Assembly (NCBI GenBank): GCA_030446015.1
Contig: JASUSO010000011.1
Span: 1-43,917 of the forward strand
Length of the DNA stretch: 43,917 nucleotides
Source of the DNA: Methanobacteriota archaeon
GTDB taxonomy: Archaea; Halobacteriota; Methanomicrobia; Methanomicrobiales; Methanoculleaceae
Direction of reading: 5' to 3'
The notes under the pieces are model-generated. The model was not told the DNA's origin. It saw only the letters and a program-made list of their open reading frames with translations, and did not search any database. Shown piece by piece: positions 16,453-35,071 of the stretch. Each line of letters opens with the position of its first letter. Within the stretch, counting starts at the first letter, position 1. Position numbers and translations under genes: made by a program.

Positions 16453-16488
16453 TGGCAGGTTATATCGCCTCACTCTGAGGTGATTCTG

Positions 16489-17415
16489 GTGCAGAGACGG
16501 GATATTCCAGCAGGGGAAAAACAGTACGATGTCGAGCATCTGGCATCGAGGCAGGACGTCGACGGCCTGATCGAGGCGCTCCAGAGCGGCGACCCGGCCG
16601 TCCGCCGGAGAGCCGCCCTCGGCCTCGGCGCGCTCGGTGAGTGGCGGGGGGTGGATCCCCTCATCCGGGCGCTCACCGATCCGGTGCAGGACGTCCGGGA
16701 GGGGGCGGCGAACGCGCTCGTCATGGTCGGGACACCGGCGGTCGAACCGCTGATCGACGTCCTCGAAGGCCGCGGTGCTGCGGTCGGGTTGCCGCGGGAA
16801 GCATCCGGCGAAGGGCTGACACAGGTCGACCTCCTCGGGGGGCCCGAGGGGATACCGCCCGCGAAGAGGATGCTCCGGCACCATGGGGGCATCAGGCAGC
16901 ACGATGCCTTCGGCGGCCCGGAGGATATCAGGAGAGCGGGAGGCGGACGGGCCCGCGACAGTGAGGAGGGGCTCTCCCAGCACGACGCGTTGGGCGGTCC
17001 TGAAGATATCAGGAGATCAGGGGCCAGGATGGCGGTCGAAGGCGAGGAGGAGATCACCCAGCACGATCTCCTCGGCGGGCCCGGCGACATCGGGCCGAAA
17101 AAGATCCTCCGGCATCCTGAGATTGCGCAGCACGACCTCCTCGGCGGCCCGGAGGATGCAGAGGCGCACGAGGCCCTCTTCCCCGGTGCAAGGAAGGGAG
17201 GCGTCGTGACGGAGGGCGTTGTCCCCGGCACGGGGGTGCGGCGGGCGTACGCCGCCGTCATTCTCGGCGAGATCGCCGATCCGCGGGCGGAAGGGGCGCT
17301 CGGCCGGTCGATCTCCGACGCCGATCCCGCCGTCCGGCGGGCGGCCGAAGATGGGCTGGCACGGTTCCGGCAGAAACGGGGCGAGGCCACGCCCGTCCCA
17401 CCGGCGTCGCGGTGA
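16489..17415 (+). CDS. HEAT-repeat protein with a five-copy QHDxLGGPEDI insert
   Basis: 308 residues from GTG 16489, chosen because GAGGTGAT at 16477-16484 is an almost ideal ribosome site that overlaps the upstream GTG at 16480. Two PBS-lyase type HEAT repeats (VDGLIEALQSGDPAVRRRAA, VDPLIRALTDPVQDVREGAA) come first and one more near the end (RRAYAAVILGEIADPRAEGAL). Between them, residues about 112-223, lies a stretch with five copies of a QHDLLGGPEDI-like peptide spaced 22-27 residues apart. The tandem paralogue downstream has ordinary sequence there. HEAT repeats usually mediate protein binding; partner unknown. Likely an operon with the paralogue. Confidence 0.85.
   Translation: MQRRDIPAGEKQYDVEHLASRQDVDGLIEALQSGDPAVRRRAALGLGALGEWRGVDPLIRALTDPVQDVREGAANALVMVGTPAVEPLIDVLEGRGAAVGLPREASGEGLTQVDLLGGPEGIPPAKRMLRHHGGIRQHDAFGGPEDIRRAGGGRARDSEEGLSQHDALGGPEDIRRSGARMAVEGEEEITQHDLLGGPGDIGPKKILRHPEIAQHDLLGGPEDAEAHEALFPGARKGGVVTEGVVPGTGVRRAYAAVILGEIADPRAEGALGRSISDADPAVRRAAEDGLARFRQKRGEATPVPPASR
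16822..17157 (+). repeat. Five-copy peptide repeat inside the HEAT protein
   Basis: In the reading frame: QVDLLGGPEGI, QHDAFGGPEDI, QHDALGGPEDI, QHDLLGGPGDI and QHDLLGGPEDA. Linkers are 11-16 residues, polar and unlike one another, so the core is what is conserved. The invariant part is Q-x-D-x-x-G-G-P-x-[DG]. Confidence 0.85.
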
Positions 17416-19779: not shown

Positions 19780-20712
19780 ATGGCACGAAGAACGTGGGTG
19801 CCCATTCTGGGCATCATGGTGATAATGCTCGCGGCCTGTGCCGCCACCGTCACGGCACAGGAAGCGGCAGACCCGGGAGTACTCCGGATAGCAACGACGA
19901 CAAGCCTCCGTGATACGGGCCTTCTCGACGAACTCGAACTGATGTACGAGAACACCTCCGATGTGGACGTGCAGATCACCGCCCAGGGGACCGGGCAGTC
20001 CCTGGACACCGCACGGCGCGGCGACGTCGACCTGGTGCTCGTCCATTCTCCATCGCTTGAGCAGCAGTTCATCGACGAGGGCTACGGCATCAACGAGCGG
20101 TGCTTCGCCTACAACAACTTCATCATCGTCGGCCCCGCATCCAACCCGGCGGGGATCGCGAACATGACCCCGGTCGAGGCGTTCCAGGCGATCTACGTCG
20201 CCGGGACGAACGATACCGCGGGCGTCGCCTTTGCCTCCCGCGGTGACGACTCCGGCACGCACACACGCGAGCAGGAGATCTGGGAAGCCGCCGGCTACAA
20301 CTACACCACCGAGATCCAGGACTCCGGGGCCTGGTACCTTGAGACCGGGAGCGGCATGGGTGAGACGCTGACCCTTGCCAACCAGAGGGAGGCCTACACG
20401 CTCTCCGACATCGGGACCTACCTCGCCCTCCAGGAGCAGCTGGACCTCGTGCAGCTCGTGACCGAGGGCGACCAGCTCATGAACCGCTACAGCGCGATCG
20501 CGGTCAACCCCGAGATGGCACAGGGCGTCAACGTCGATGAGGCCAACAGGTTCATCGACTGGCTCACCACGGACGAGACCAAGGAGTTCATCGGGAACTT
20601 CGGCGTCGCTGAGTTCGGCCAGTCGCTCTTCATCCCGCTCTACCCGCCGGAATGCACCGAGTCGCCGTTCAACTGCACCACCTGTTCGGGGGAGATGAAC
20701 GCTACGGCATGA
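19780..20712 (+). CDS. TupA-like tungstate-type ABC substrate-binding protein, solo copy
   Basis: 310 residues from ATG 19780. Signal sequence MARRTWVPILGIMVIMLAAC with a LAAC lipobox-like end, then the TupA-family opening LRIATTTSLRDTGLLDELE, the anion-site segments ITAQGTGQSLDTARRGDVDLVLVHSP and FASRGDDSGTHTREQEIWEAAG, and the C-terminal PLYPPECTESPFNC. These TTTS and SRGDxSGTH motifs are those of tungstate binders. The gene has its own promoter and no adjoining permease; it is followed by a close paralogue that heads a complete tup operon, with which it may share the permease. Phosphate-type annotation is possible in databases but fits less well. Confidence 0.88.
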   Translation: MARRTWVPILGIMVIMLAACAATVTAQEAADPGVLRIATTTSLRDTGLLDELELMYENTSDVDVQITAQGTGQSLDTARRGDVDLVLVHSPSLEQQFIDEGYGINERCFAYNNFIIVGPASNPAGIANMTPVEAFQAIYVAGTNDTAGVAFASRGDDSGTHTREQEIWEAAGYNYTTEIQDSGAWYLETGSGMGETLTLANQREAYTLSDIGTYLALQEQLDLVQLVTEGDQLMNRYSAIAVNPEMAQGVNVDEANRFIDWLTTDETKEFIGNFGVAEFGQSLFIPLYPPECTESPFNCTTCSGEMNATA

Positions 20713-20855: not shown

Positions 20856-21824
20856 ATGAGACCGAATGCGACACATCTGACGACAGGCATCCTCGTGATC
20901 CTGCTCATCTGCGCTCTCTGTGCGGGGTGCACGGGGACGGCGCCGCCCGGGGGAAACGAGACCCCGGCCGCCACGACCGCACCCGCCGGCGGAGGGAACG
21001 TCCTGCGGATAGCCACCACGACAAGCCTTGAGAACACCGGGCTGCTCGCGGAGCTCGAACGGGTCTACGAGAGCGAGACCGGGATGGATCTCCAGTTCAT
21101 CGCCCAGGGCACCGGACAGTCGATCGATTCCGGCAGGCGCGGCGACGTCGATCTCGTCCTCGTCCACGCCCCGGACCTTGAGCAGCAGTTCATCGACGAC
21201 GGGTTCGGGATCAATCCCCGGTGCATCGCCTACAACTACTTCATCATCGTCGGGCCGGAGTCCGACCCGGCTGGGATCGCGAACATGAGCCCGGTGGAGG
21301 CCATCCAGGCGATCTATGCGGCCGGGGCGAACAACACCGCGGGTGTTGCGTTCGTCTCCCGCGGCGACAACTCCGGCACTCACAACCAGGAGAAGGCCCT
21401 CTGGGAGGAGGCGGGCTACGACTACGAGACCGAGATCATGGACGCCGGGGCCTGGTACATCGAGGCCGGCAAGGGCATGGGCGACACCCTGATCCTTGCA
21501 AACGAGCAGCAGGCATACACCCTCTCTGATGAAGGGACCTACCTCTCGTTCGCGGACAGGCTGAACCTCGTCCCGGTCATCGCCGAGGGTGCGGAACTCC
21601 TGAACCGCTACACCGCGATCGCCGTCAACCCCGAGCGGCACCCGGGCGTGAACGCTGAGGGTGCTGCAGACTTCATCAACTGGCTCACCACGAACGAGAC
21701 GAAGCAGATGATCGGTGAGTTCGGCGCCGAGGAGTTCGGCAAACCGCTCTTTGTGCCGCTCTACTCACCCGAGTGTACCGAGCCGCCGTTCAACTGCACC
21801 TGTACCGGAGAGGTGGCCGGATAA
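20856..21824 (+). CDS. tupA: Tungstate ABC transporter substrate-binding protein TupA
   Basis: 322 residues. Lipoprotein-type signal MRPNATHLTTGILVILLICALCAGC, then a Thr/Gly-rich spacer and the TupA domain: LRIATTTSLENTGLLAELE, IAQGTGQSIDSGRRGDVDLV, FVSRGDNSGTHNQEKALWEEAG. The C-terminus SPECTEPPFNCTCTG matches the same Cys-rich tail of the solo copy at 19780. It captures the oxyanion outside the membrane. It is followed by permease and ATPase genes in the order tupA-tupB-tupC. Tungstate versus molybdate preference cannot be settled from sequence. Confidence 0.9.
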   Translation: MRPNATHLTTGILVILLICALCAGCTGTAPPGGNETPAATTAPAGGGNVLRIATTTSLENTGLLAELERVYESETGMDLQFIAQGTGQSIDSGRRGDVDLVLVHAPDLEQQFIDDGFGINPRCIAYNYFIIVGPESDPAGIANMSPVEAIQAIYAAGANNTAGVAFVSRGDNSGTHNQEKALWEEAGYDYETEIMDAGAWYIEAGKGMGDTLILANEQQAYTLSDEGTYLSFADRLNLVPVIAEGAELLNRYTAIAVNPERHPGVNAEGAADFINWLTTNETKQMIGEFGAEEFGKPLFVPLYSPECTEPPFNCTCTGEVAG

Positions 21825-21882: not shown

Positions 21883-22578
21883 ATGGTGAACGGGAACCCG
21901 ATCATCGAGGGGTTCATCGAGGCCGTCGAGCTCATCATCGCCCTCGACCCGCAGGTGGTGGAGATCACCATCCGATCGCTCTACATCTCCCTCACCGCCA
22001 CCTTCTTTGCCGCGCTGATCGCCCTGCCGCTCGGGGCGCTCATCTACTTCTACGATTTCCGGGGGAAGCACGCGGTCGTTTCGACGCTGCAGACGCTGTA
22101 TGCGCTCCCGACGGTCATCGTGGGCCTGATCGTCTTCCTGATGCTCTCGAACATCGGCCCTTTCGGATTCCTCCGCCTCCTCTACACCCCCGGCGGCATG
22201 ATCGTCGCACAGACCGTCCTCATCATCCCGCTCCTGATGGGGCTGACGATCTCGGCGCTCTCCGGGATCGACCGGGACAAACGCTACACGATCACCGCCC
22301 TCGGCGCGAGCAGGCTCCAGACGGTCACGACGATCATCGCAGAGGCACGGTTCGCGGTGATGGCCGGCGTCCTCCTTGGGTTCGGGCGGGCGATCGCCGA
22401 GGTCGGGACGGTGATGATCGTCGGCGGGAACATCCGGGGCGCGACCCGCGTCCTCACCACCGCGATCGCGCTCAACACATCGATGGCGAACTACTCCCTC
22501 TCGATCGCGCTCGGGATCATCCTTCTCGCGGTGGCGCTTGGGGTGAACATCGCCCTCTCGCTCGTCCAGCAACGGTGA
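21883..22578 (+). CDS. tupB: Tungstate ABC transporter permease TupB
   Basis: 231 residues, about five membrane helices (FFAALIALPLGALIYF, TVIVGLIVFLMLSNIGPFGF, MIVAQTVLIIPLLMGLTISAL). The cytoplasmic EAA-type coupling loop is the segment KRYTITALGASRLQTVTTII. It forms the membrane channel with the ATPase encoded four bases downstream. It closely resembles the second TupB at 33289. Start ATG 21883 follows GAGGCTGAGG. Confidence 0.92.
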   Translation: MVNGNPIIEGFIEAVELIIALDPQVVEITIRSLYISLTATFFAALIALPLGALIYFYDFRGKHAVVSTLQTLYALPTVIVGLIVFLMLSNIGPFGFLRLLYTPGGMIVAQTVLIIPLLMGLTISALSGIDRDKRYTITALGASRLQTVTTIIAEARFAVMAGVLLGFGRAIAEVGTVMIVGGNIRGATRVLTTAIALNTSMANYSLSIALGIILLAVALGVNIALSLVQQR

Positions 22579-22582
22579 TATC

Positions 22583-23659
22583 ATGACGGTCATCGAGGCA
22601 CACGGGATCAGAAAGGTCTACGGCACCCTTGAAGTCCTGCACGACGTCGACCTTTCGGTCAGCGAAGGCGAGATCCTCGCGCTCATCGGCCCGAGCGGGT
22701 CGGGGAAGAGCACGCTTCTCCGGCTCCTCGACCTGATCGAGCCCGCGAGCGGAGGGGAACTCTCGGTCTTCGGGATCGACACGGTCGCGGAACGCGGCAG
22801 GTGGCTTGACCTCCGCCGCCGGATGGGGATGCTCTTTCAGCGACCGATCGTCTTCAACTCCTCCGTCTACGACAACGTCGCGATGGGGCTCCGCTACCGG
22901 CGTGCTCCCTCTGGCGATATCGACCGGAAGGTGAAGGAGGCCCTCGAGGCCGTCGGGCTCTCCCGTTACATCAAGAGTCGGGCGACCGATCTCTCCGGCG
23001 GGGAGCAGCAGCGGGTGGCGCTCTCACGGGTGCTCGTGACCGAGCCCGAGATCCTCTTCCTCGACGAGCCGACGGCGAACCTGGACCCGGGATCGACCGC
23101 GACCATCGAGCGGATCGTGACGGGCTTAAACCGCGAGACGGGGATGACCGTCATCATCAGCACCCACGACCTGGCGCAGGGCCAGCGCCTCGCCCACCGG
23201 GTCGGGGTGATGATCGAGGGGACGATCGCCCAGACCGGGCCGTCCCACGAGATCTTCCGCGAACCGAAGGACCGGCGGATCGCACGGTTCGTGGGCGTCC
23301 AGAACATCATCCCCGGCCGGGTCGTCGCGCAGCGAGAGGGGTTCACCGTGGTGGAGGCAAAGGGTAAGGAGATCCTCTCGGCGACCCCGCCGCCCTCAGA
23401 CGAGGTCGAGATGATCGTCCGGGGCGAGGACATCTCCCTGCACCGGAGGGAGCCCGGCCACGATGAGGCGGAGAACGTCTTCCCCGCCACGGTCACCGCC
23501 ATCGATCCCACGGCACCGTTCGTGAACGTGACGATCCACTGCGGGTGCGATATCGTTGCGCTCGTGACTGCGAGGAGGGCGGAGGCCCTCGATCTCCGGG
23601 AGGGGATGGAGGTCTGGGTCTCTCTCCAGGCGAAGGCGGTTCACCTGATCCAGCGTTAA
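22583..23659 (+). CDS. tupC: Tungstate ABC transporter ATP-binding protein TupC
   Basis: 358 residues. Walker A GPSGSGKST (36-44), signature LSGGEQQRVALSR, Walker B ILFLDEPTANLDPG and switch His in IISTHDLAQGQ are complete. The C-terminal 120 residues (NIIPGRVVAQREG onward) are a regulatory TOBE-like extension, often anion-sensing in Mo/W importers. It begins four bases after tupB. It powers import. Confidence 0.93.
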   Translation: MTVIEAHGIRKVYGTLEVLHDVDLSVSEGEILALIGPSGSGKSTLLRLLDLIEPASGGELSVFGIDTVAERGRWLDLRRRMGMLFQRPIVFNSSVYDNVAMGLRYRRAPSGDIDRKVKEALEAVGLSRYIKSRATDLSGGEQQRVALSRVLVTEPEILFLDEPTANLDPGSTATIERIVTGLNRETGMTVIISTHDLAQGQRLAHRVGVMIEGTIAQTGPSHEIFREPKDRRIARFVGVQNIIPGRVVAQREGFTVVEAKGKEILSATPPPSDEVEMIVRGEDISLHRREPGHDEAENVFPATVTAIDPTAPFVNVTIHCGCDIVALVTARRAEALDLREGMEVWVSLQAKAVHLIQR

Positions 23660-24335: not shown

Positions 24336-25469
24336 TCAGGACGGGGACGCTCTCCCCTTCTCCCGCCACTTCTGCGCATAGGCGAGGATCATCCCTATGA
24401 TGAACGCAAACGTAAGGCCGATCACGAGGGTGAGGACGGCGATGACCGCCGTGACCAGGTAGGACTCCGTCTTCGCGCTGTGTTTCCCGAGCTCGATCGC
24501 CACGAAGACCAGGAGCGCGCCGAAGACGCCGAAGGGGATGAGGGTCAGGACCTCCGGCGGGGCGAAGGCAACGGCGAAGATGAGGATGAAGATCCCGGCA
24601 ACGATGTTCGCCCCGCCGGTCCTCGCGCCGAACCGGTACATCGCGGCAAGCCCCCCGGCGCCGTGGCACATCGGAAACCCGCCGAGCGGCGTCGAGACCA
24701 GGTTCATCGCCCCGATCGTCCGCGAGAGCCGGTCGGGGTCGACGCCCTTCTTCGGGAAGAGGTCGTAGGTGAGGAGGGACGTCGCGAGGATGGCGTTCGC
24801 GATCGTGAGCGGGATCTGCGGGAGGACGAGGTCCCATGTCCCGGCGATGAAATCGACGGGCGCGGGGAGGACGAGGGAGGGGACGGGCATCAGGCGGAAC
24901 GGCGGCATCCCCTGCGTCGCGATCCCGGCGCCAAGCCCGATAACGAGGACGAGCAGCGCCGAGACATCCGGGATCCGGGTGCGCTGCGACGCGACGAAGA
25001 AGACAAGGATGATCGCTATCGAGAGCGCCGCAACCAGAACGTCGGTGACGATGTAGCCGAACGACGTCTTGAGGAGGAGGAGGGCAAGACCCGCCTGGAC
25101 GCCCCGGATGACGCTCTTTGGTATCCGGTCCCCAAGCCAGGTCATCCCGCCGACGAGCCCGAGGACGAGGAAGAGCACCCCGACAACGATGCCTGAAGCC
25201 ACGATCTCGCCGGCACAGAGCCCTTCGGCGATGACGACCGCCCCGATCGCCTTCATCGGCTCGATGGGGATGGGCAGGCGGTAGTAGAACCCGGTGATGA
25301 TGAACCAGGCGGCGAGAAAGAGGAAGAAGTGGCTGACGTTGACGTCCGGGCAGACGATGGCGACACCGAGCAGGATGGGGAAGATGGTGCCGAAGTCGCC
25401 AACGGCTCCGGCGATCTCCTCGAGGGTGATCCGGATGCCGCCTCCCCCTGTTCCGGTGCTCTCCGCCAT
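24336..25469 (-). CDS. MOT1-type molybdate transporter
   Basis: 377 residues with ten or more hydrophobic helices. GAVGDFGTIFPILLGVAIV, LPIPIEPMKAIGAVVIAEGL and GGFPMCHGAGGLAAMYRFGA are the paired conserved blocks of the MOT1 family, SulP-related high-affinity molybdate transporters known from plants, algae and prokaryotes; the PMKAI and CHGAGG segments are diagnostic. It is a secondary carrier, thus a fourth import route beside three ABC systems. It diverges from modA across an AT-rich 172-base promoter region. Some sulfate transport cannot be excluded. Confidence 0.88.
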   Translation of the reverse strand: MAESTGTGGGGIRITLEEIAGAVGDFGTIFPILLGVAIVCPDVNVSHFFLFLAAWFIITGFYYRLPIPIEPMKAIGAVVIAEGLCAGEIVASGIVVGVLFLVLGLVGGMTWLGDRIPKSVIRGVQAGLALLLLKTSFGYIVTDVLVAALSIAIILVFFVASQRTRIPDVSALLVLVIGLGAGIATQGMPPFRLMPVPSLVLPAPVDFIAGTWDLVLPQIPLTIANAILATSLLTYDLFPKKGVDPDRLSRTIGAMNLVSTPLGGFPMCHGAGGLAAMYRFGARTGGANIVAGIFILIFAVAFAPPEVLTLIPFGVFGALLVFVAIELGKHSAKTESYLVTAVIAVLTLVIGLTFAFIIGMILAYAQKWREKGRASPS

Positions 25470-25641: not shown

Positions 25642-26457
25642 ATGAAAGCACACCTGCTTCTCATTACTGGACTGCTGATCGCAGCAACCGCCGCTTTCGC
25701 ATGCGGATGTACCGGAACTACCGCCGATACACCGGCGGAGACCGACACAACAAAACCCGAGCTGCTCGTCTACTGCGGCGCGGGCATGCGCGAACCGATG
25801 GAAGAGATCGCGGCGACCTTCACGAACCGGACAGGCATCCCGATCAACTTCATCTTCGGCGGGTCGAACACCCTCCTTACCCAGATGGAACTGACGGGGA
25901 TGGGCGACGTCTACATGCCGGGAGCAACCGCCTACTTCGATGCGGCCCGCGAGAAGGGGCTGGTCGAGGAGGAGCACCTGATCGTCTACCATGTCCCGGT
26001 CATCGCCGTCCCGAAGGGCAACCCCGCAGGCATCACCAGTCTTGAGGATATGGCAAAACCCGGGGTTCGGGTGGCGCTCGGCGACACCGCCACTGCCATC
26101 GGGGAACTGACCGACAAACTCCTGGCGAAGAACAACCTCCTTGATGACGTGAACAAGAACGTCGTGACCCGTTCCGGCACGGTAAACGAACTGCTGGTCT
26201 ACATCTCCATGGGGCAGGCCGACGTTGGTATCATCTGGGAGGATCTCTACGTGCCGGAGAAGATGGACCTCATCTACATCCCGAACGCTGACAACCTGGT
26301 CAAGATCGTCCCCATCGGGGTGCTGACGTCTTCAGAGCATCCCACTGAAGCCGAACAGTTCACCGCATTCGTCATTTCCGACGAAGGCAAAGAGATCTTC
26401 ACCCGGCACGGGTTCGTCACCTACCCAAGCGACACCTACGCGGATGTCAAACCCTGA
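25642..26457 (+). CDS. modA: Molybdate ABC transporter substrate-binding protein ModA
   Basis: 271 residues. Lipoprotein-type signal MKAHLLLITGLLIAATAAFACGC, then the ModA fold: LLVYCGAGMREPMEEIAATF, INFIFGGSNTLLTQMEL, GDVYMPGATAYFDAAREKG, PKGNPAGITSLEDMAKPGV and GQADVGIIWEDL. Ser/Thr-rich loops at the start of the lobes bind the tetrahedral oxyanion. First gene of modA - trmO-like - modB - modC. It differs clearly from the three TupA-like proteins in this window. Substrate could be molybdate or tungstate. Confidence 0.88.
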   Translation: MKAHLLLITGLLIAATAAFACGCTGTTADTPAETDTTKPELLVYCGAGMREPMEEIAATFTNRTGIPINFIFGGSNTLLTQMELTGMGDVYMPGATAYFDAAREKGLVEEEHLIVYHVPVIAVPKGNPAGITSLEDMAKPGVRVALGDTATAIGELTDKLLAKNNLLDDVNKNVVTRSGTVNELLVYISMGQADVGIIWEDLYVPEKMDLIYIPNADNLVKIVPIGVLTSSEHPTEAEQFTAFVISDEGKEIFTRHGFVTYPSDTYADVKP

Positions 26458-26483
26458 TAAAACCAGGAAAGGAGAGATGTCAC

Positions 26484-26987
26484 ATGGAAGTCACCTACCG
26501 GATCATCGGAACGATTCACTCGCCGTTCACTGACCAGGACACCACACCCATCCAGAGCATCTTCTCCGAAGCGGAGGGGACGATCGAGGTCTTCCCCGAG
26601 TATGCCGGGGGGCTTGAAGGGGTCGAGGGGTTCTCACACATCATCCTCCTCTACCACTTCCATCGGGCGAACGGCTTTAGCCTGCGCCAGCGCCCGTTCG
26701 TCGATGGCAGCAAAGAGCGGGGGATATTTGCCATACGCCACTTCAACCGCCCGAACCCGATCGGGATCTCCCTCGTCGAGGTCGTCTCCGTCGAGGGCAA
26801 CACCGTCCGCGTCCGCGGGATCGACGTGCTGGACGGCACCCCGCTCCTCGACATCAAACCCTACGTCCGCCAGTTCGACCACCGCGACGAGGTCAGGAGC
26901 GGTTGGGTCGACGCACGGCATATCGAGGAGGTAAAGGTCAGGAGTTTCTCGCCAAAGGACCTCCGGGAACATGAGGAGTCTTCATGA
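26484..26987 (+). CDS. TrmO/TsaA-fold (UPF0066) protein inside the mod operon
   Basis: 167 residues. TYRIIGTIHSPFTD, EGFSHIILLYHFHRA, the signature HFNRPNPIGISLVEV (RPNPIG at 89-94) and LDGTPLLDIKPYV define the TrmO/TsaA beta-barrel family. In bacteria TrmO methylates N6 of t6A37 in tRNA using SAM. Here the gene is embedded between modA and modB and overlaps modB by an ATGA junction, so it is translated with the transporter. A tRNA role or a metal/pterin-related role are both open. AGGAGAG precedes the ATG. Confidence 0.88.
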   Translation: MEVTYRIIGTIHSPFTDQDTTPIQSIFSEAEGTIEVFPEYAGGLEGVEGFSHIILLYHFHRANGFSLRQRPFVDGSKERGIFAIRHFNRPNPIGISLVEVVSVEGNTVRVRGIDVLDGTPLLDIKPYVRQFDHRDEVRSGWVDARHIEEVKVRSFSPKDLREHEESS

Positions 26988-27781
26988 ACCTGAAAAAACC
27001 CTCTTTTTTTCGGGCGGCGACCATCACGGTCGCTCTCCTCATCGCCATCTTCATTCTGCTGGTCATCCTCGGGGTGGTGACCCACTCCCCGATGGGCGTC
27101 TTCATCGAGTCCCTCTTCTCTGAGGAGATCCAGTTCGCCGTCCGGCTCTCGATCATCACCTCCGTCATCTCCACACTCCTCTGCATTCTGGTCGCCGTGC
27201 CGGTAGCCTATGCGCTCGCACGCTACTCGTTCCCGGGCAAGACAGTGATGAACATGCTGATGGATATCCCGATGGCGCTCCCGCCGCTCGTGGCGGGCGT
27301 GGGGCTTCTGCTCTTCTTCGGAGTATCCCCGATAGGTAAATCGCTTGCTGCGGCAGGGCTCACCGTCGTCTTTACACCGCTCGGGATCATCGTAGCGCAG
27401 TTCTTCGTGAACCTGCCCTACATGCTTCGAGTGACCCGCGCGACGTTTCAGAGTGTCAACCCCCGCTACGAGTACGTGGCAAAGACCCTCGGCTGCACCG
27501 ACGCGCAGGCCTTCTGGCGGGTCACCCTTCCCATGTCCTCAAACGGTCTCCTCGCCGGATCGGTGATCACCTGGTCAAAGGGAATCGGTGAATTCGGCGC
27601 CGCGCTGATGCTTGCCGGTGCAACGCGGATGAAGACCGAGACGCTCCCGCTCTCCCTCTTCCTGAACATGTCCATCGGAAAGCTCGAGTACGCCATCTCC
27701 GCAGCGACGATCCTCATCATGATCTCGATCGTCTCGCTATACGTCTTCGAGCGCTACGGCGGAGCCACGCACGTCTACTAG
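26984..27781 (+). CDS. modB: Molybdate ABC transporter permease ModB
   Basis: 265 residues with about six membrane helices (VALLIAIFILLVILGVV, LLCILVAVPVAYALARYSF, LPPLVAGVGLLLFFG). The EAA-type coupling loop is EYVAKTLGCTDAQAFWRVTLP with the conserved Gly. It starts within the stop of the TrmO-like gene (ATGA). Together with ModA and ModC it forms an importer of the molybdate/sulfate permease type. An internal T7 run near 27005 is within coding sequence, not a terminator. Confidence 0.93.
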   Translation: MNLKKPSFFRAATITVALLIAIFILLVILGVVTHSPMGVFIESLFSEEIQFAVRLSIITSVISTLLCILVAVPVAYALARYSFPGKTVMNMLMDIPMALPPLVAGVGLLLFFGVSPIGKSLAAAGLTVVFTPLGIIVAQFFVNLPYMLRVTRATFQSVNPRYEYVAKTLGCTDAQAFWRVTLPMSSNGLLAGSVITWSKGIGEFGAALMLAGATRMKTETLPLSLFLNMSIGKLEYAISAATILIMISIVSLYVFERYGGATHVY

Positions 27782-27790
27782 GAGGTACAC

Positions 27791-28849
27791 ATGCTTACCA
27801 TCGATTCGGTATCCAAGAGCCTCGGGGAGTTTACGCTCTCGAACGTCTCGCTCTCGATCGGAGACGGCGAATACTTCATCGTCCTCGGCCCCACAGGTGC
27901 AGGGAAGACGATCCTTCTTGAGACAATCGCAGGGATCTACAGCCCCGATGCCGGCAGGATTCTTCTGAACGGCCGGGACATCACGGACGTTCCCGCACGG
28001 GACAGGAACATCGGCATGGTCTATCAGGACTACATGCTCTTCCCGCACCTGACCGTTGAAGAGAACATCGGCTTCGGGCTGAAGTCCCGCCGCGCCGACC
28101 CCGTATTCATCCGTGGAAAAGTGGAGGAGAGCGCCGAACTCTTAAACATCAGCCATCTGCTCCACCGCTACCCGGGCACGCTCTCGGGCGGCGAGCAGCA
28201 GCGTGCGGCGATCGCCCGGGCACTGGTGATGGAGCCCGAAGCGCTGCTGCTGGACGAGCCGCTCTCCGCACTGGACGTGAAGACGCGTGAGAGCCTGCGG
28301 GTGGAACTCGCCCGGATTCACGAGGCAACCGGGATGACGATCGTCCATATCACCCATAACTTCGAGGAGGTCTTCGACCTCGCCGACCGGGTGGCGATCA
28401 TGCGCGGCGGCGAGGTGGTTCAGGTGGGAACTCCGGAGGAGATCTTCCGACGGCCGAACTCCGACTTCGTCGCGGGTTTTGTCGGGGTGGAGAACCTCTT
28501 TCGCGGGATGGGGTCGTCCACCGGGACGGTTGCGGTGGGGAATCTCCGGATACAGGTGGAGAACGCCATCAGTGGTCCCGTCTCCGTTGCCATCCGACCG
28601 GAAGATATCCTGCTGTCGAAGACCGCCCTGCCGGAGAACGAAAAGAATGTCTTTCTCGGTCGCATCGATTCGGTGCGGCCTAACGGGGGGCTGGTCAGGG
28701 TCTTTGTGAATACGGGGATCCCGTTCCAGGTGACGCTGACCCGGCAGGGGTTCGAAGAGGCCGGTATCGCCCCGGGCGATGCTGTTTACCTCGCCTTCCG
28801 GCCATCGTCAGCCCACGTCTACCCTTCCGGCGCTCCGGAAGAGGCCTGA
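27791..28849 (+). CDS. modC: Molybdate ABC transporter ATP-binding protein ModC
   Basis: 352 residues. Walker A GPTGAGKT (33-40), signature LSGGEQQRAAIARAL, Walker B ALLLDEPLSALD and the His switch in IVHITHNFEEV are complete. A C-terminal TOBE/MOP-type region (VAIRPEDILLSKTALPENEK to the end) likely binds the oxyanion and gives trans-inhibition, as known for archaeal ModC. GGAGGT sits upstream of ATG 27791, ten bases after modB. Last gene of the operon; it runs tail to tail against the MscS gene. Confidence 0.93.
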   Translation: MLTIDSVSKSLGEFTLSNVSLSIGDGEYFIVLGPTGAGKTILLETIAGIYSPDAGRILLNGRDITDVPARDRNIGMVYQDYMLFPHLTVEENIGFGLKSRRADPVFIRGKVEESAELLNISHLLHRYPGTLSGGEQQRAAIARALVMEPEALLLDEPLSALDVKTRESLRVELARIHEATGMTIVHITHNFEEVFDLADRVAIMRGGEVVQVGTPEEIFRRPNSDFVAGFVGVENLFRGMGSSTGTVAVGNLRIQVENAISGPVSVAIRPEDILLSKTALPENEKNVFLGRIDSVRPNGGLVRVFVNTGIPFQVTLTRQGFEEAGIAPGDAVYLAFRPSSAHVYPSGAPEEA

Positions 28850-29855: not shown

Positions 29856-30212
29856 TTAACCTCTCCGTTGCGCCGCCTGGATCTCGAGCGCCCGGAGAAC
29901 CCCGGAACCCAGGACCTCCGCCGCGCGATCGCCGTGCCGCCCCGCCATGACCGCGAGGAGGCGCTCGGTGCCCGCGGCCGTGGTGGAGATGCCGACCCGC
30001 TCGATCCTGCGGATCAGTCCGTCCCGCTCCATCTCCCCGAACCGGGGAAGGACGTAGTAGTGCGGGATCCCGAGGTGCTCGGCAAGTTTCCGTGTCGTCG
30101 GGAACCGCAGCGAGATGCCGTCCGGGGAAAAACTGACAGTGACGCACCGGTCCTCTTCGAGGAGGATCCGGACGGCCGCATCGATTATGTCGTCGTACTC
30201 GTGTGTGGACAT
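29856..30212 (-). CDS. Winged-helix-like protein, candidate regulator
   Basis: 118 residues from ATG 30212 (MSTHEYDDIIDAAVRILLEE). The upstream frame to 30350 is antisense noise. A winged-helix pattern is visible: FPTTRKLAEHLGIPHYYVLPRFGEMERDGLIRRIERVGISTTAAG, where TTRKLAEHLGIPHYYV looks like the recognition helix region. No ModE-type ligand domain is present. Placed between the MscS gene and the small gene next to the MoSto-like protein, it is a positional candidate for local control, but this is inference only. Confidence 0.7.
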   Translation of the reverse strand: MSTHEYDDIIDAAVRILLEEDRCVTVSFSPDGISLRFPTTRKLAEHLGIPHYYVLPRFGEMERDGLIRRIERVGISTTAAGTERLLAVMAGRHGDRAAEVLGSGVLRALEIQAAQRRG

Positions 30213-30261: not shown

Positions 30262-30498
30262 TTACGCAGCTTCCGCTGCCTGCATCTCGCCCCGCTCTTC
30301 TTCGGGCATCTCCTCGAGGTAGACGATCTCCGCCCCGATGTCCTTTGCAATCTGTTCGAGCTCCACCTTCCGGAAGTGCGTTCCCTCCACCTTCAGGTGC
30401 TTCTCCTCGCCCTGCTCTTCGACGACGGCGACGACGCGGAACCGGGGCTGTTTGACGCCGGTACCGACTTTCTGGCGTTCACGTGCATAGATCTTCAT
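30262..30498 (-). CDS. 78-residue protein divergent from the MoSto-like gene
   Basis: From ATG 30498: MKIYARERQKVGTGVKQPRF, then RVVAVVEEQGEEKHLKVEGTHFRKVELEQIAKDIGAEIVYLEEMP and an acidic Glu/Ala-rich tail. It looks like a compact alpha/beta protein, soluble. I recognise no family. The longer frame to 30618 would cover the divergent promoter and is rejected. It shares a 92-base intergenic region, with a strong palindrome, with the MoSto-like storage gene, so co-control is likely. Confidence 0.7.
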   Translation of the reverse strand: MKIYARERQKVGTGVKQPRFRVVAVVEEQGEEKHLKVEGTHFRKVELEQIAKDIGAEIVYLEEMPEEERGEMQAAEAA

Positions 30499-30522
30499 CG
30501 TTTTCCCATCCCATACCAGTTG

Positions 30523-30540
30523 GTATATCAGCAGATATAC
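30523..30540. promoter_or_regulatory. Palindromic operator candidate between the MoSto-like gene and its divergent neighbour
   Basis: GTATATC-AGCA-GATATAC, perfect 7-base arms, flanked by TTG on the left and, after one more pair of bases, CAA on the right. It lies 25-42 bases upstream of the minus-strand ATG at 30498, right on the expected TATA position, and about 50-68 bases upstream of ATG 30591. A TATA-like AGATATTTAAC (about 30546-30556) serves the + strand gene. Confidence 0.55.
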
Positions 30541-30590
30541 ACCAAAGATATTTAACTGTTTCTCCCGCATATGAAGTAAGGACTGATACC

Positions 30591-31397
30591 ATGGCAGAAC
30601 GATTTGAGATGGAATCAAGGTTCCGCGGCGAGAGTCTGGTTCGGCGCGGCCTCCTCCGCGAGACCCGGACCGGGCAGCAGGTCAGGATCATGCCCGACCT
30701 GAACGTGATCAAGCTCGGCGGCCACGGGGTCATCGACTACGGGCGGGAAGTCCTCTTTCCCCTGATCGAGGAGATCGGTGAACTCTCCCGCACCAACAAG
30801 ATACTGGTCGCCACCGGCGGCGGTGTCCGGGTGCGGCACATCCTTGACGTCGGGATCGATCTCGGAATGCCGACGGGCGTGCTTGCGGAACTGGCGGGCA
30901 AGGTCAGCGAGCAGAACGCGATCATGATCTCGCTCCTCTTCTCGAAGTACAACGGCACCCGGATCCACACCGGCGATCTCCTAAATCTCCCTTCGCTGAT
31001 ATCCCTCGGGATGCTCCCGGTCGTGCAGGGCACCCCGCCCTACGGGCTGTACGAGCACCCCCCGAAACTCGGGAGCATCCCGCCGCACCGGACGGATACC
31101 GGAGCGTTCTTGATGGCGGAGGTCGTCGGCGCGAAGAACTGCATCCTCGGGAAGAACGTGGACGGCCTCTTCACCGAGAACCCGTTCGTGAACCCCGACG
31201 CCGAGTTCATCCCGGAGATCACCGCCGACGAGCTGATCGAGATGGAGATGGAGGATATGGTGCTCGAACCGATGGCCGTCGAACTCCTCCGGGACGCCGT
31301 CCACGTCAAAGAGATCAAGATCGTGAACGCCCATGTGCCGGGGAACATCACGAATGCCGTCAACGGGGAGCGGGTCGGCACCATCATCCGGGCCTGA
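30591..31397 (+). CDS. Molybdenum/tungsten storage protein (MoSto)-like amino acid kinase-fold protein
   Basis: 268 residues from ATG 30591, about the length of Azotobacter MosA/MosB (near 270). Amino-acid-kinase fold: VIKLGGH (39-45), ATGGGVR (74-80). Features shared with MoSto subunits as I recall them: PPYGLYEHPPKLGSIPPHRT (149-168) then DTGAFLMAE, NVDGLFTENP (189-198), AEFIPEITADEL, and VNAHVPGNITNAV with GERVGTIIRA at the end. True UMP kinases lack the IPPHRTDTGAF block. MoSto packs polyoxomolybdate or tungstate clusters in a hexameric cage using ATP. The Mo/W transporter setting supports this. One subunit only is encoded here, so a homo-oligomer is inferred. Confidence 0.85.
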   Translation: MAERFEMESRFRGESLVRRGLLRETRTGQQVRIMPDLNVIKLGGHGVIDYGREVLFPLIEEIGELSRTNKILVATGGGVRVRHILDVGIDLGMPTGVLAELAGKVSEQNAIMISLLFSKYNGTRIHTGDLLNLPSLISLGMLPVVQGTPPYGLYEHPPKLGSIPPHRTDTGAFLMAEVVGAKNCILGKNVDGLFTENPFVNPDAEFIPEITADELIEMEMEDMVLEPMAVELLRDAVHVKEIKIVNAHVPGNITNAVNGERVGTIIRA

Positions 31398-31483: not shown

Positions 31484-32182
31484 ATGACCATCTATCTTGG
31501 CATTGACGACACCGACACACGCGAGTCCCGGGGAACCGGACGGCTCGCACGCGCAATAGCAGCAGAACTCACCCGGTCGTACACGGTGACCGGGGTGACC
31601 CGCCACCAGCTCTTTGTCCATCCCGCCGTCCCCTACACCTCCCACAACAGCTCCGCGGTCATCCACATCCAGGATACCGGGAACGGGATCGCGGCCGACG
31701 TCTTCGCGGCGGCAAAGGAACTGATGCTCGCCGACTTCATCGAGGGGAGCGACCCGGGGATCTGCGTCGCCTCCGACTCCGCGATCAACGGCGACCTTAC
31801 CCGCTTCGGCCTCTCCGCGAAGACGAGCGTCGTGACGCAGGACCGGGCGCGGACGCTTGCCCGCGAGGCCGGAGTCCTCCTCGAAGGGCTTGGCGGCACC
31901 GAAGACGGCGTCATCGGCGCGCTTGCCGGGGTCGGGCTTGCGGCGTCGGGGAACGACGGCCGGTTCGTCCAGAAGGGAACGATCCGCGACCTCCGCGGCA
32001 CCCAGACGGTCGCCGCGATCCTCGCCTCCGGGGTCGACCGGGTGATGACCCGGGACGGGGCGGCGGTCGGGGAAGGCACCGTCGCACTCAAAAAGTTCCC
32101 GAAGCCAGCGTTCATCGGCGGGAAGGCAATCCTCTACGTCGAGGCGGACGGGGACGCCTACCGCGATATTGTGGTGGGCTGA
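31484..32182 (+). CDS. Free-standing TiaS kinase-domain-like protein
   Basis: 232 residues from ATG 31484 (a TTG at 31442 is less likely). MTIYLGIDDTDTRESRGTGR carries the GIDDTD motif (residues 6-11) of the tRNA-Ile2 agmatinylcytidine synthase TiaS kinase domain; HPAVPYTSHNSSAVIHI and GVIGALAGVGLAASGNDGRF also match that domain in order. TiaS itself is over 400 residues and has ferredoxin-like, OB and zinc-ribbon tRNA-binding parts, none of which is here. It is therefore probably an ATP-using enzyme with another substrate. It lies between the MoSto-like gene and the second tup operon. Confidence 0.75.
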   Translation: MTIYLGIDDTDTRESRGTGRLARAIAAELTRSYTVTGVTRHQLFVHPAVPYTSHNSSAVIHIQDTGNGIAADVFAAAKELMLADFIEGSDPGICVASDSAINGDLTRFGLSAKTSVVTQDRARTLAREAGVLLEGLGGTEDGVIGALAGVGLAASGNDGRFVQKGTIRDLRGTQTVAAILASGVDRVMTRDGAAVGEGTVALKKFPKPAFIGGKAILYVEADGDAYRDIVVG

Positions 32183-32307: not shown

Positions 32308-33231
32308 ATGTACAGACGAACAATTTTCGCCGTTGCGGCCGTAATGGTCGCTCTTCTGTTCATCTGCGGCTGTACCGGGACGACAACCGATCAGACTCCC
32401 GCAGAAAAGCAGCAACTCCGTATCGCTACGACGACGAGCCTCTATGACACGAAGCTCCTCGACCACCTCACACCGATCTTCGAGGAGAAGTACAACGCTG
32501 AGGTGCTGATCGTCTCCGGCGGAACCGGCAAGGCGATCGAGTATGGACAGCGGGGCGATGTCGACGTCCTGATGGTGCACGACCGTGCACGTGAAGATGC
32601 CTTCCTCGCCGACGGCTATGGTGTCAACCGGCGCGTATTCGCCTACAACTACTTCGTCGTCATCGGACCCGAGTCCGACCCGGCCGGCATCAAGGGCATG
32701 GGCCCCGTGCAGGCCTTCAAGACGATCTACGCTGCCGGCGAGAGCAACACCCCCGGTGTAACCTTCATCTCACGCGGCGACGCATCGGGCACGCACTCGA
32801 AGGAGCAGGCAATCTGGAAGGCTGCCGGATTTAACTACTCGACAGATATCCAGGGCAACGACTGGTACCAGGAGGCCGGGACCGGCATGGGTGCGACCAT
32901 TGCGATGACAAACGAGAAGCAGGCCTACGCTCTCTCCGACATCGGGACATTCCTTGCCTACAAGGGCGATGTTGACCTCGTAGCGCTCGTCGACGAGGGT
33001 GATGCCCTGCTCAACGTCTACTGCGCAATGCAGATCAACCCCGAGAAGTACCCCGACACCAACATCGCCCTCGCGAAGGAATGGACCAACTTCCTGATCT
33101 CTGACGAGATCCAGCAGGAGATCGCCTCCTTCGGTGTCGCAGAGTACGGCCAGCCGCTCTTCTACGCCGCCCAGAACGACTGGGAGAAGATCGGCGTGAC
33201 CGAAGCCGAAGTGAAGGACCCGGTCGCCTGA
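32308..33231 (+). CDS. tupA: Tungstate ABC transporter substrate-binding protein TupA, second operon
   Basis: 307 residues. Lipoprotein signal MYRRTIFAVAAVMVALLFICGC, then LRIATTTSLYDTKLLDHLTP, IVSGGTGKAIEYGQRGDVDV and FISRGDASGTHSKEQAIWKAAG, the TupA anion-site motifs. It is more diverged from the 19780 and 20856 copies than they are from each other, and lacks their Cys-rich C-terminal tail (it ends NDWEKIGVTEAEVKDPVA). It heads tupA-tupB-tupC number two. Confidence 0.9.
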   Translation: MYRRTIFAVAAVMVALLFICGCTGTTTDQTPAEKQQLRIATTTSLYDTKLLDHLTPIFEEKYNAEVLIVSGGTGKAIEYGQRGDVDVLMVHDRAREDAFLADGYGVNRRVFAYNYFVVIGPESDPAGIKGMGPVQAFKTIYAAGESNTPGVTFISRGDASGTHSKEQAIWKAAGFNYSTDIQGNDWYQEAGTGMGATIAMTNEKQAYALSDIGTFLAYKGDVDLVALVDEGDALLNVYCAMQINPEKYPDTNIALAKEWTNFLISDEIQQEIASFGVAEYGQPLFYAAQNDWEKIGVTEAEVKDPVA

Positions 33232-33288: not shown

Positions 33289-33990
33289 ATGTACGAGATC
33301 GTTGAGGGGTTCCTGGAAGCAATCAGGCTCATCGTCACGCTCGACCCCAACGTGATGGCCATCGCCGTACGAAGCATCATCATATCGCTCACCGCAACGA
33401 TCATCGCCTCGCTGTTTGCCATTCCGCTCGGGGCCGCGATCAACTTCGGGACGTTCCCGGGCAGGAAGAGCCTCATCAACCTGATCCAGACACTCTACTC
33501 GCTCCCGACAGTCATCGTCGGGCTGCTGATATTCCTGCTCATCTCCCGCGTGGGGCCGTTCGGGTTCATGCGGCTGCTCTTCACCCCGACCGCGATGATC
33601 ATCGCCCAGACGGTCCTGATCATCCCGATCATGACCGGCCTTACGATCTCCGCGCTCTCGGGGGTCGACCCGGTGATCAGGGATACCCTCCGGTCGCTCG
33701 GGGCAACAAAACTCCAGTTCCTGACAAACGTCATAAAGGAAGCGCGGTTCGCGATCCTCGCGACCGTCGCGGTCGGGTTCGGGCGGGCGATATCCGAGGT
33801 TGGGGCGGCGATCCTGGTCGGCGGCAACATCGCCGCGGCGTCGTTTGCGAGTTCGACCCGGGTCCTGACGACCGCGATATCGCTCGAGACCTCGATGGGG
33901 AACATCTCCCAGTCGATCGCACTCGGGATCGTCCTCCTTGTAATCGCCCTCGGCGTGAACCTCGCCATAGCCGCGGTGCAGCACCGGTGA
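33289..33990 (+). CDS. tupB: Tungstate ABC transporter permease TupB, second operon
   Basis: 233 residues, about five helices (SIIISLTATIIASLFAIPLG, PTVIVGLLIFLLISRVGPFG, AMIIAQTVLIIPIMTGLTIS), with the coupling loop IRDTLRSLGATKLQFLTNVI. It is collinear with TupB at 21883 over its whole length, with an extra AAASFAS insertion near residue 183. The GTG of GGTGTAGAAG precedes the ATG, and tupC follows after four bases. Confidence 0.92.
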   Translation: MYEIVEGFLEAIRLIVTLDPNVMAIAVRSIIISLTATIIASLFAIPLGAAINFGTFPGRKSLINLIQTLYSLPTVIVGLLIFLLISRVGPFGFMRLLFTPTAMIIAQTVLIIPIMTGLTISALSGVDPVIRDTLRSLGATKLQFLTNVIKEARFAILATVAVGFGRAISEVGAAILVGGNIAAASFASSTRVLTTAISLETSMGNISQSIALGIVLLVIALGVNLAIAAVQHR

Positions 33991-33994
33991 TACC

Positions 33995-35071
33995 ATGATC
34001 GAACTCGAAAATGTCTCAAAATACTTCGGCGACACCCGGGTGCTCGACGGCGTCACCGGCAAGGTGAACCGGGGAGAGATCTTCGCCGTCATCGGCCCCT
34101 CCGGGTCGGGGAAGTCGACCCTGCTGCGCCTCATCGATCTCCTCGATACCCCGACGGGAGGGACGATCCGGGTGGATGGCACCGATATCCACACGGAGCA
34201 TGAGAAGAGCCTCTCCGTCCGGAGAATGATGGGGATGGTCTTTCAGAAGCCCGCCGTCTTCAACGCGACGGTCGCGGAGAACATCGCCGTCGGCCTCCGG
34301 TTCCGGGGGGCGGATAAAAACAAGATCGATGCCCGGATCAAGGAAGCCCTCGATCTGGTCGGCCTTGGGGGTTACGGACAGCGGCGGGCAAGGACGCTCT
34401 CGGGCGGAGAGATGCAGCGGGTGGCGCTTGCCCGGGCGATGGTGATCGAGCCCGAGATCCTCCTCCTCGACGAACCGACCGCGAACCTCGACCCGGTCTC
34501 GGTGGCGATGATCGAGGACCTGGTGGTGCGGATCAACCGCGACCTCGGGACGACGATCGTCTTCTCGACCCACGACATGTACCAGGGCCAGCGGCTCGCC
34601 CACCGGCTCGGGGTGCTGATGAACGGGGTGTTTGCGCAGGTGGGGACGCCGCGGGAGGTCTTCACCCTCCCGGCGAGCCGGGAGGTCGCCCGGTTCGTCG
34701 GGATCGAGAACATCGTCGAGGGCGTCGTCGTCAGCGAGAACGGCACCTCGGCCGTCGATGCGGGGGGTATCCGCATCCGGGCACGGTCGCCGTTCGGGGC
34801 GGGGGAGGCGATCTGCCTCTGCATCCGCTCGGAGGACATCCGGATCGCCCCGGCGATCCGGGGAAGAAGGGTCTTTGACGGGAACATCCTCCCCGGCACC
34901 GTGACCTCCGTCGTGCCGCGCGGGCCGTTCAGCAAGGTGACGGTCGACTGCGGGTTCTCGCTCTCGTCCATCCTCTCCTGGAAGAAGGTGGATGACCTGA
35001 ATCTCCGGGAGGGAAGGGAGGTCGTGGTCTCGTTCTCGCCGGAGTCGGTTCACGTCGTCCGGCGGGAGTGA
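33995..35071 (+). CDS. tupC: Tungstate ABC transporter ATP-binding protein TupC, second operon
   Basis: 358 residues, same length as TupC at 22583. Walker A GPSGSGKST (34-42), signature LSGGEMQRVALARAM, Walker B ILLLDEPTANLDP and IVFSTHDMYQGQ are complete. The C-terminal region (IENIVEGVVVSENG onward) is a TOBE-like domain. Last gene of the island, followed by a T7 run. Confidence 0.93.
   Translation: MIELENVSKYFGDTRVLDGVTGKVNRGEIFAVIGPSGSGKSTLLRLIDLLDTPTGGTIRVDGTDIHTEHEKSLSVRRMMGMVFQKPAVFNATVAENIAVGLRFRGADKNKIDARIKEALDLVGLGGYGQRRARTLSGGEMQRVALARAMVIEPEILLLDEPTANLDPVSVAMIEDLVVRINRDLGTTIVFSTHDMYQGQRLAHRLGVLMNGVFAQVGTPREVFTLPASREVARFVGIENIVEGVVVSENGTSAVDAGGIRIRARSPFGAGEAICLCIRSEDIRIAPAIRGRRVFDGNILPGTVTSVVPRGPFSKVTVDCGFSLSSILSWKKVDDLNLREGREVVVSFSPESVHVVRRE

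Follow-up and report, generated by a model that had tools for sequence, protein, structure and literature searches.

The window analysed here, a stretch of 43,917 nucleotides from a Methanobacteriota archaeon of the Methanoculleaceae, carries at 30591-31397 on the plus strand a gene for a 268-residue protein of the amino-acid-kinase type, and this locus raises the question whether the product is a uridylate kinase or a single-gene-type homologue of the molybdenum storage protein MoSto, and what such a homologue might do in a methanogen. MoSto (MosA/MosB), the cage protein in which Azotobacter vinelandii stores molybdenum or tungsten, consists of two homologous subunits, assembled into an (alpha-beta)3 hexamer. 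A MoSto study of 2019 stated that no homologues were known in databases (PMC6448029). In our literature search, no paper linking MoSto with archaea was found, and storage is unmentioned in a 2018 survey of Mo utilisation.

The reading frame is open from an ATG start that is preceded by an AAGGA ribosome-binding-like stretch. Genus relatives of 82-94% identity have the identical start methionine at 30591, and an in-frame GTG alternative at 30483 would overlap a divergently transcribed small gene. Three blocks that a sequence-only reading had named as MosA/MosB-like, IPPHRTDTGAF, PPYG..EHPP and VPGNIT..GERVGTII, were all found in the translated frame. By phmmer search of all PDB sequences, the protein matched MosB with 1.9e-62 (214 bits, residues 8-268) and MosA with 2.3e-46 (162 bits), and the top match to a UMP kinase was 43 bits in the C-terminal part only. 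The homology to A. vinelandii MoSto is full-length, at an identity of about 43% for MosB and 36% for MosA. AA_kinase was the sole Pfam match. Alignment identified the MoSto-specific insert PPYGLYEHPPKLGS, located before the IPPxRTD block as in the A. vinelandii protein, and UMP kinases lack PPYGLYEHPPKLGS. The AlphaFold model (pLDDT 90.9) showed the same fold as MosB, with a TM of 0.90 at 1.6-1.7 A, and a TM to UMP kinases of at most 0.70.

A divergent UMP kinase would be compatible with the Pfam AA_kinase match, with a weak match to the UMP-kinase equivalog TIGR02076 (61.9 bits versus the cut-off of 158.05), and with the annotation that relatives carry. Archaeal PyrH (TIGR02076) shares with the window protein the amino-acid-kinase fold and a glycine-rich nucleotide site, but the identity is about 19-23%, and the window protein has the MoSto insert and lacks the UMP-kinase residues, matching 1 of 9 UMP-kinase-diagnostic columns. 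Among the columns diagnostic for MoSto, as defined by two-gene MoSto proteins, 20 of 28 were matched. For phylogeny, 59 MoSto proteins in a quick tree and 38 in a careful one were analysed together with archaeal and bacterial UMP kinases. Both trees fully supported the split between MoSto and UMP kinases. In the careful tree, the window protein grouped with MosA and MosB, apart from the true UMP kinases by a split supported at 100/100. It belonged to a mainly archaeal clade (100/100), nested in a single-gene clade (98/98) that also takes in Chloroflexota and Deltaproteobacteria, and the proteins of two-gene loci, whether of MosB or MosA type, were located outside the latter. Because long branches connect MoSto and UMP kinases, the branching order at the MoSto root is left unclaimed. 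Constraining the window protein to the archaeal UMP kinases was rejected by the AU test (p-AU 0.002). In addition, a separate PyrH above cut-off was present in all 31 genomes checked, including the window's own, where the true PyrH is encoded at G000:C6:19571-20233 (272 bits). On the grounds of tree, AU test, fold model, diagnostic residues and separate PyrH, UMP kinase identity was ruled out as extremely improbable, and the assignment to the MoSto family was borne out by sequence, fold model, tree and AU test alike. The product of 30591-31397 is a MosA/MosB relative, despite its nucleotide-kinase look.

The forecast that such a protein is likely to be misannotated as uridylate kinase agreed with the records of Azospirillum plasmid homologues, of which 8 of 10 are named 'uridine kinase' or 'uridine monophosphate kinase' and 2 of 10 'molybdenum storage protein subunit alpha', the labels being those of these bacterial records only. 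Misannotation of the relatives of the window protein as uridylate kinase is plausible.

Functional residues were mapped with the MosA sequence of chain 2ogx_A as reference. Lys41 of the window protein corresponds to the ATP-site residue Lys45 of MosA, which is invariant in all groups aligned. Among the MosA residues that hold the Mo8 and W3 clusters is the three-fold histidine His140. The Mo8 cluster is held by MosA Glu129 and His156 (PMC4504029). In the alignment, none of the ligands Glu129, His140 and His156 is kept in the window protein, in which His126, Leu136 and Gly152 stand at these positions. The three positions vary across the family outside Azotobacter: the Glu129 position is occupied by Glu in 5 of 10 bacterial homologues, and neither MosB nor any further bacterial homologue in the alignment has His140 or His156, indicating that the set is a trait of Azotobacter MosA rather than of the family. 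As judged from the alignment, the cluster ligands of the window protein may differ from those of MosA; His45, Asp129 and Glu155 are candidate residues common to the archaeal members, as mostly are His166 and His248. Since the ligands are unconserved, cluster binding by the window protein is not evident from its sequence.

The amino-acid-kinase fold, the conserved ATP-site residues and the unconserved MosA ligands might also be expected of a kinase or ATPase of W/Mo cofactor metabolism with a small-molecule substrate, a descendant of the MoSto lineage that does not store metal, and a second kinase-like gene of TiaS type adjoins the locus. This reading is regarded as improbable, given that the MoSto-specific insert and the N-terminal segment are conserved, that the UMP-kinase-specific residues are lost, and that metal storage is what the sole family member characterised so far carries out. 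We consider instead that the window gene probably encodes a subunit of an ATP-dependent store of the MoSto family for tungstate or molybdate, composed of one subunit type and a small accessory protein.

Three Mo/W transporters had been read next to the gene from sequence alone. Transporters are indeed present, but the count was too low, at least four systems (TupABC twice, MOT1 and ModABC) being encoded; within about 16 kb, the window contains ModABC, a MOT1 permease and two tup clusters, which between them have three TupA genes. The tup cluster linked to MoSto lies downstream on the plus strand, and encodes a TupA-type tungstate-binding protein (32308-33231; NF041772, 188 bits, below the cut-off of 400), a TupB-type permease (33289-33990; NF041773, 158.6 bits, below cut-off) and a TupC/WtpC-type ATPase with a TOBE domain (33995-35071). 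The second tup cluster, also on the plus strand, consists of an extra upstream TupA (19780-20637), TupA (20856-21824), TupB (21883-22578) and TupC (22583-23659). The MOT1-type molybdate permease is encoded on the minus strand (24336-25469; PF16983, 1.4e-51), and is followed by the plus-strand mod cluster (25642-28849) of ModA (25642-26457), ModB (26984-27781) and ModC (27791-28849), with matches to TIGR01256 (modA) and TIGR01581 above cut-off. A TrmO-like gene (26484-26987, plus strand; PF01980) separates modA from modB in the window, as it does in many relatives, which is an unusual place to find a tRNA methyltransferase.

In 24 genomes, both genes were located on one long contig; TupA was 15 kb or less from MoSto in 18 of them, against about 0.32 expected (Poisson value 1e-25, which overstates the independent events because the genomes are related), and farther away in the remaining 6. 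The PyrH control gave 0/23 in the identical test. In two archaeal genomes outside Methanomicrobiales, a TupA gene of the same orientation as MoSto begins about 150 bp downstream of it, and Tup genes also adjoin single-gene MoSto in Chloroflexota and Deltaproteobacteria. In contrast, the two-gene mosBA loci examined, the gene arrangement of A. vinelandii MoSto, contained only ModA- or ModB-like genes and no Tup genes. Genes for formate dehydrogenase or Moco biosynthesis are close by in some MoSto loci. The strongest genomic link of archaeal MoSto is with the tungstate (Tup) transporters, not with those for molybdenum. TupABC has been described as highly specific for tungstate (PMC11980592); as the TupA matches are below the NCBIfam cut-off, their specificity for tungstate is putative.

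A store mainly for molybdenum, as in Azotobacter, would overlap with the store for either metal proposed above, which leaves the metal open. Membership in the same family and the adjacent ModABC and MOT1 genes are in its favour, but TupA is the most widely conserved linkage. Moreover, nifD was absent from the window's own genome (90% complete), and MoSto was not positively associated with nifD among Methanomicrobiales: of the 42 genomes with nif, 24 had MoSto, as did 129 of the 190 without. A store primarily for molybdenum is judged rather unlikely. After the nifD search, a link of MoSto to nitrogen fixation was dropped.

A single gene for MoSto beside Mo/W transporters in a methanogen, as the sequence-only reading had it, was confirmed, but it is no one-off: MoSto was detected in 153 of 232 Methanomicrobiales genomes (96 of the 135 good ones), and bacteria are members of the same clade. 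Outside Methanomicrobiales, a phylum sample of 393 genomes gave 9 more archaeal genomes with MoSto, from four families. In a public genome collection, the single-gene type was found in archaea, Chloroflexota, Acidobacteria and Deltaproteobacteria, and two-gene mosBA in a Deltaproteobacteria/Myxococcota MAG, Flavobacteriales, Cyanobacteria, Bradyrhizobium and one Azospirillum plasmid, both lists being lower bounds drawn from the best 80 of 203 relatives. Viral contigs were searched without a match. Two subunit genes, as in A. vinelandii, are not the archaeal pattern, since nearly all archaeal genomes carry one gene and tandem copies were observed in a single genus only. In that genus (g14; loci L035, L036 and L195), the unit of MoSto and small gene is duplicated in tandem, each copy having its own divergent small gene, and a two-subunit cage may have been reached here independently. 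Four Desulfuromonadota MAG contigs (L120, L121, L133 and L134) carry an archaeal-type MoSto of about 65% identity, accompanied by the small gene in three of the four; unless the contigs are misbinned, these copies were probably acquired from methanogens.

The small gene (30262-30498, minus strand) encodes 78 residues, and is transcribed divergently from MoSto at a distance of 92 bp. No match to the protein was found in Pfam or NCBIfam. In the 232 Methanomicrobiales genomes, both genes were present in 151, MoSto alone in 2, the small gene alone in 4 and neither in 75, counts that come from related genomes and include shared descent. In the phylum sample, the small gene accompanied MoSto in all 67 MoSto genomes, and three further genomes, all 70-85% complete, had the small gene alone. 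Profile searches of loci detected it in 69 of 70 archaeal MoSto loci and, with varying positions and orientations, in 26 of 38 bacterial single-gene loci; none was found in the 9 two-gene mosBA loci, a further difference from the A. vinelandii system. A search of plasmids with the small protein gave none. Chance neighbourhood is excluded by the co-occurrence in Methanomicrobiales together with the proximity in differing orientations in bacteria. The near-perfect co-occurrence of the 78-residue gene with single-gene MoSto is new here, and its family is a near-obligate companion of single-gene MoSto in archaea and bacteria. As this conserved protein accompanies it almost without exception, the window MoSto is not a lone component.

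In an alignment of 55 sequences of the small family, four residues were invariant (R6, R8, P18 and R43), three of them arginines, and H41 and E46 were nearly so; the invariant arginines suggest that the protein perhaps binds an anion. Its model consists of three strands and one helix at weak confidence (pLDDT 69), and fold search with this model gave no significant relative in PDB. The intergenic region shared by the two genes (30499-30590) has counterparts in 108 divergent pairs, with a median gap of 93 bp, and includes at 30513-30526 the palindrome ATACCA-GT-TGGTAT (ATACCA-N2-TGGTAT), which is found again within the genus and, in part, in other families, and is a possible operator. Such a palindrome in a promoter region that serves both divergent genes would be compatible with a small gene that regulates MoSto expression, or is linked to it otherwise, instead of being part of the store, as would the lack of a fold match for the small protein. 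The predicted three strands and helix are, however, unlike a common DNA-binding family; a regulator need not belong to one, and we judge this role possible but doubtful. Within the window, the exact ATACCANNTGGTAT palindrome occurs only at the MoSto/small-gene site. Genome-wide counts were barely above those of the reversed control, with no enrichment elsewhere, and a second exact match, the only further one genome-wide, lies near a sulfhydrylase-like gene. A regulon defined by ATACCANNTGGTAT was rejected on these counts.

Directly downstream of MoSto, an ATG at 31484 starts a plus-strand gene (31484-32182) for a 232-residue protein resembling the kinase domain of TiaS. As in TiaS (tRNA-Ile2 agmatinylcytidine synthetase) and methanogenesis marker 11, an N-terminal kinase-like domain with a GIDDTD motif is present, but the neighbour is a stand-alone protein with matches below both family cut-offs (NCBIfam methan_mark_11, 5.9e-13; TiaS, 7.3e-8). 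The gene adjoins MoSto in most Methanoculleus loci, many Chloroflexota, one Acidobacterium and several Deltaproteobacteria. Its co-occurrence with MoSto (both in 101 genomes, MoSto alone in 52, the TiaS-like gene alone in 12, neither in 67) is looser than that of the small gene.

Either W or Mo is needed for the first step of CO2-dependent methanogenesis, and we know of no mechanism by which methanogens buffer these metals. In the store proposed here, the adjacent Tup, Mod and MOT1 transporters would deliver tungstate or molybdate to the cytoplasm, where MoSto subunits of a single kind would form a cage, by analogy a hexamer, into which the oxyanion would be pumped. Loading would be powered by ATP at the retained amino-acid-kinase site, the oxyanion would be condensed into an oxide cluster inside the cage, and the metal, once released, would serve the pterin cofactor of formylmethanofuran dehydrogenase and formate dehydrogenase. 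The divergent 78-residue protein would be an obligate accessory, whose invariant arginines perhaps bind the anion or the cage. For the window protein, we infer cage formation, the stored metal and ATP dependence by analogy with MoSto; the preference for tungsten, the accessory role and the destination enzymes are likewise putative. In a wider form, which we put forward tentatively, methanogens, Chloroflexota, Acidobacteria and Deltaproteobacteria would share a two-component tungstate store, independent of nitrogen fixation, made of a homo-oligomeric MoSto-type cage and a dedicated partner that is about 65-95 residues long and belongs to an unclassified family; a third component, the TiaS-type kinase, would be optional.

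Intracellular storage of tungstate or molybdate has also been proposed for the Tub/Mop TOBE proteins, such as Tub of Eubacterium limosum, likewise in organisms with Tup transporters (PMC11980592); their TOBE fold is unrelated to MoSto, and the TOBE domain PF03459 gave no match in the window MoSto or its small partner. The present findings suggest that methanogens and several bacterial groups have a metal-storage system that has been overlooked. If this is true, a protein known for metal storage in nitrogen fixers occurs widely among anaerobes, most of which fix no nitrogen; there it is concealed by names such as uridylate kinase and is accompanied by a protein family absent from Pfam and NCBIfam. 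A single-subunit MoSto would offer a simpler cage for biological polyoxometalate chemistry.

Several other neighbours were observed. A winged-helix-like small protein is encoded on the minus strand at 29856-30212, without a family match above cut-off; a similar gene lies beside MoSto in other archaeal loci, as seen from a cluster of neighbouring genes and from a similar protein in locus L184. In Chloroflexota (L066, L073, L080, L085 and L062), an HTH protein starting with MPRPRK, a weak match to NCBIfam PRK04217, is encoded beside MoSto. Near this protein, L062 and several other loci have a GntR-type regulator with a C-terminal domain like that of a molybdopterin biosynthesis protein (PRK14498 match). 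Farther upstream in the window, the plus-strand gene at 16480-17415 encodes a HEAT-repeat-like protein, in whose middle part a QHDxLGGPEDI-type motif is repeated.
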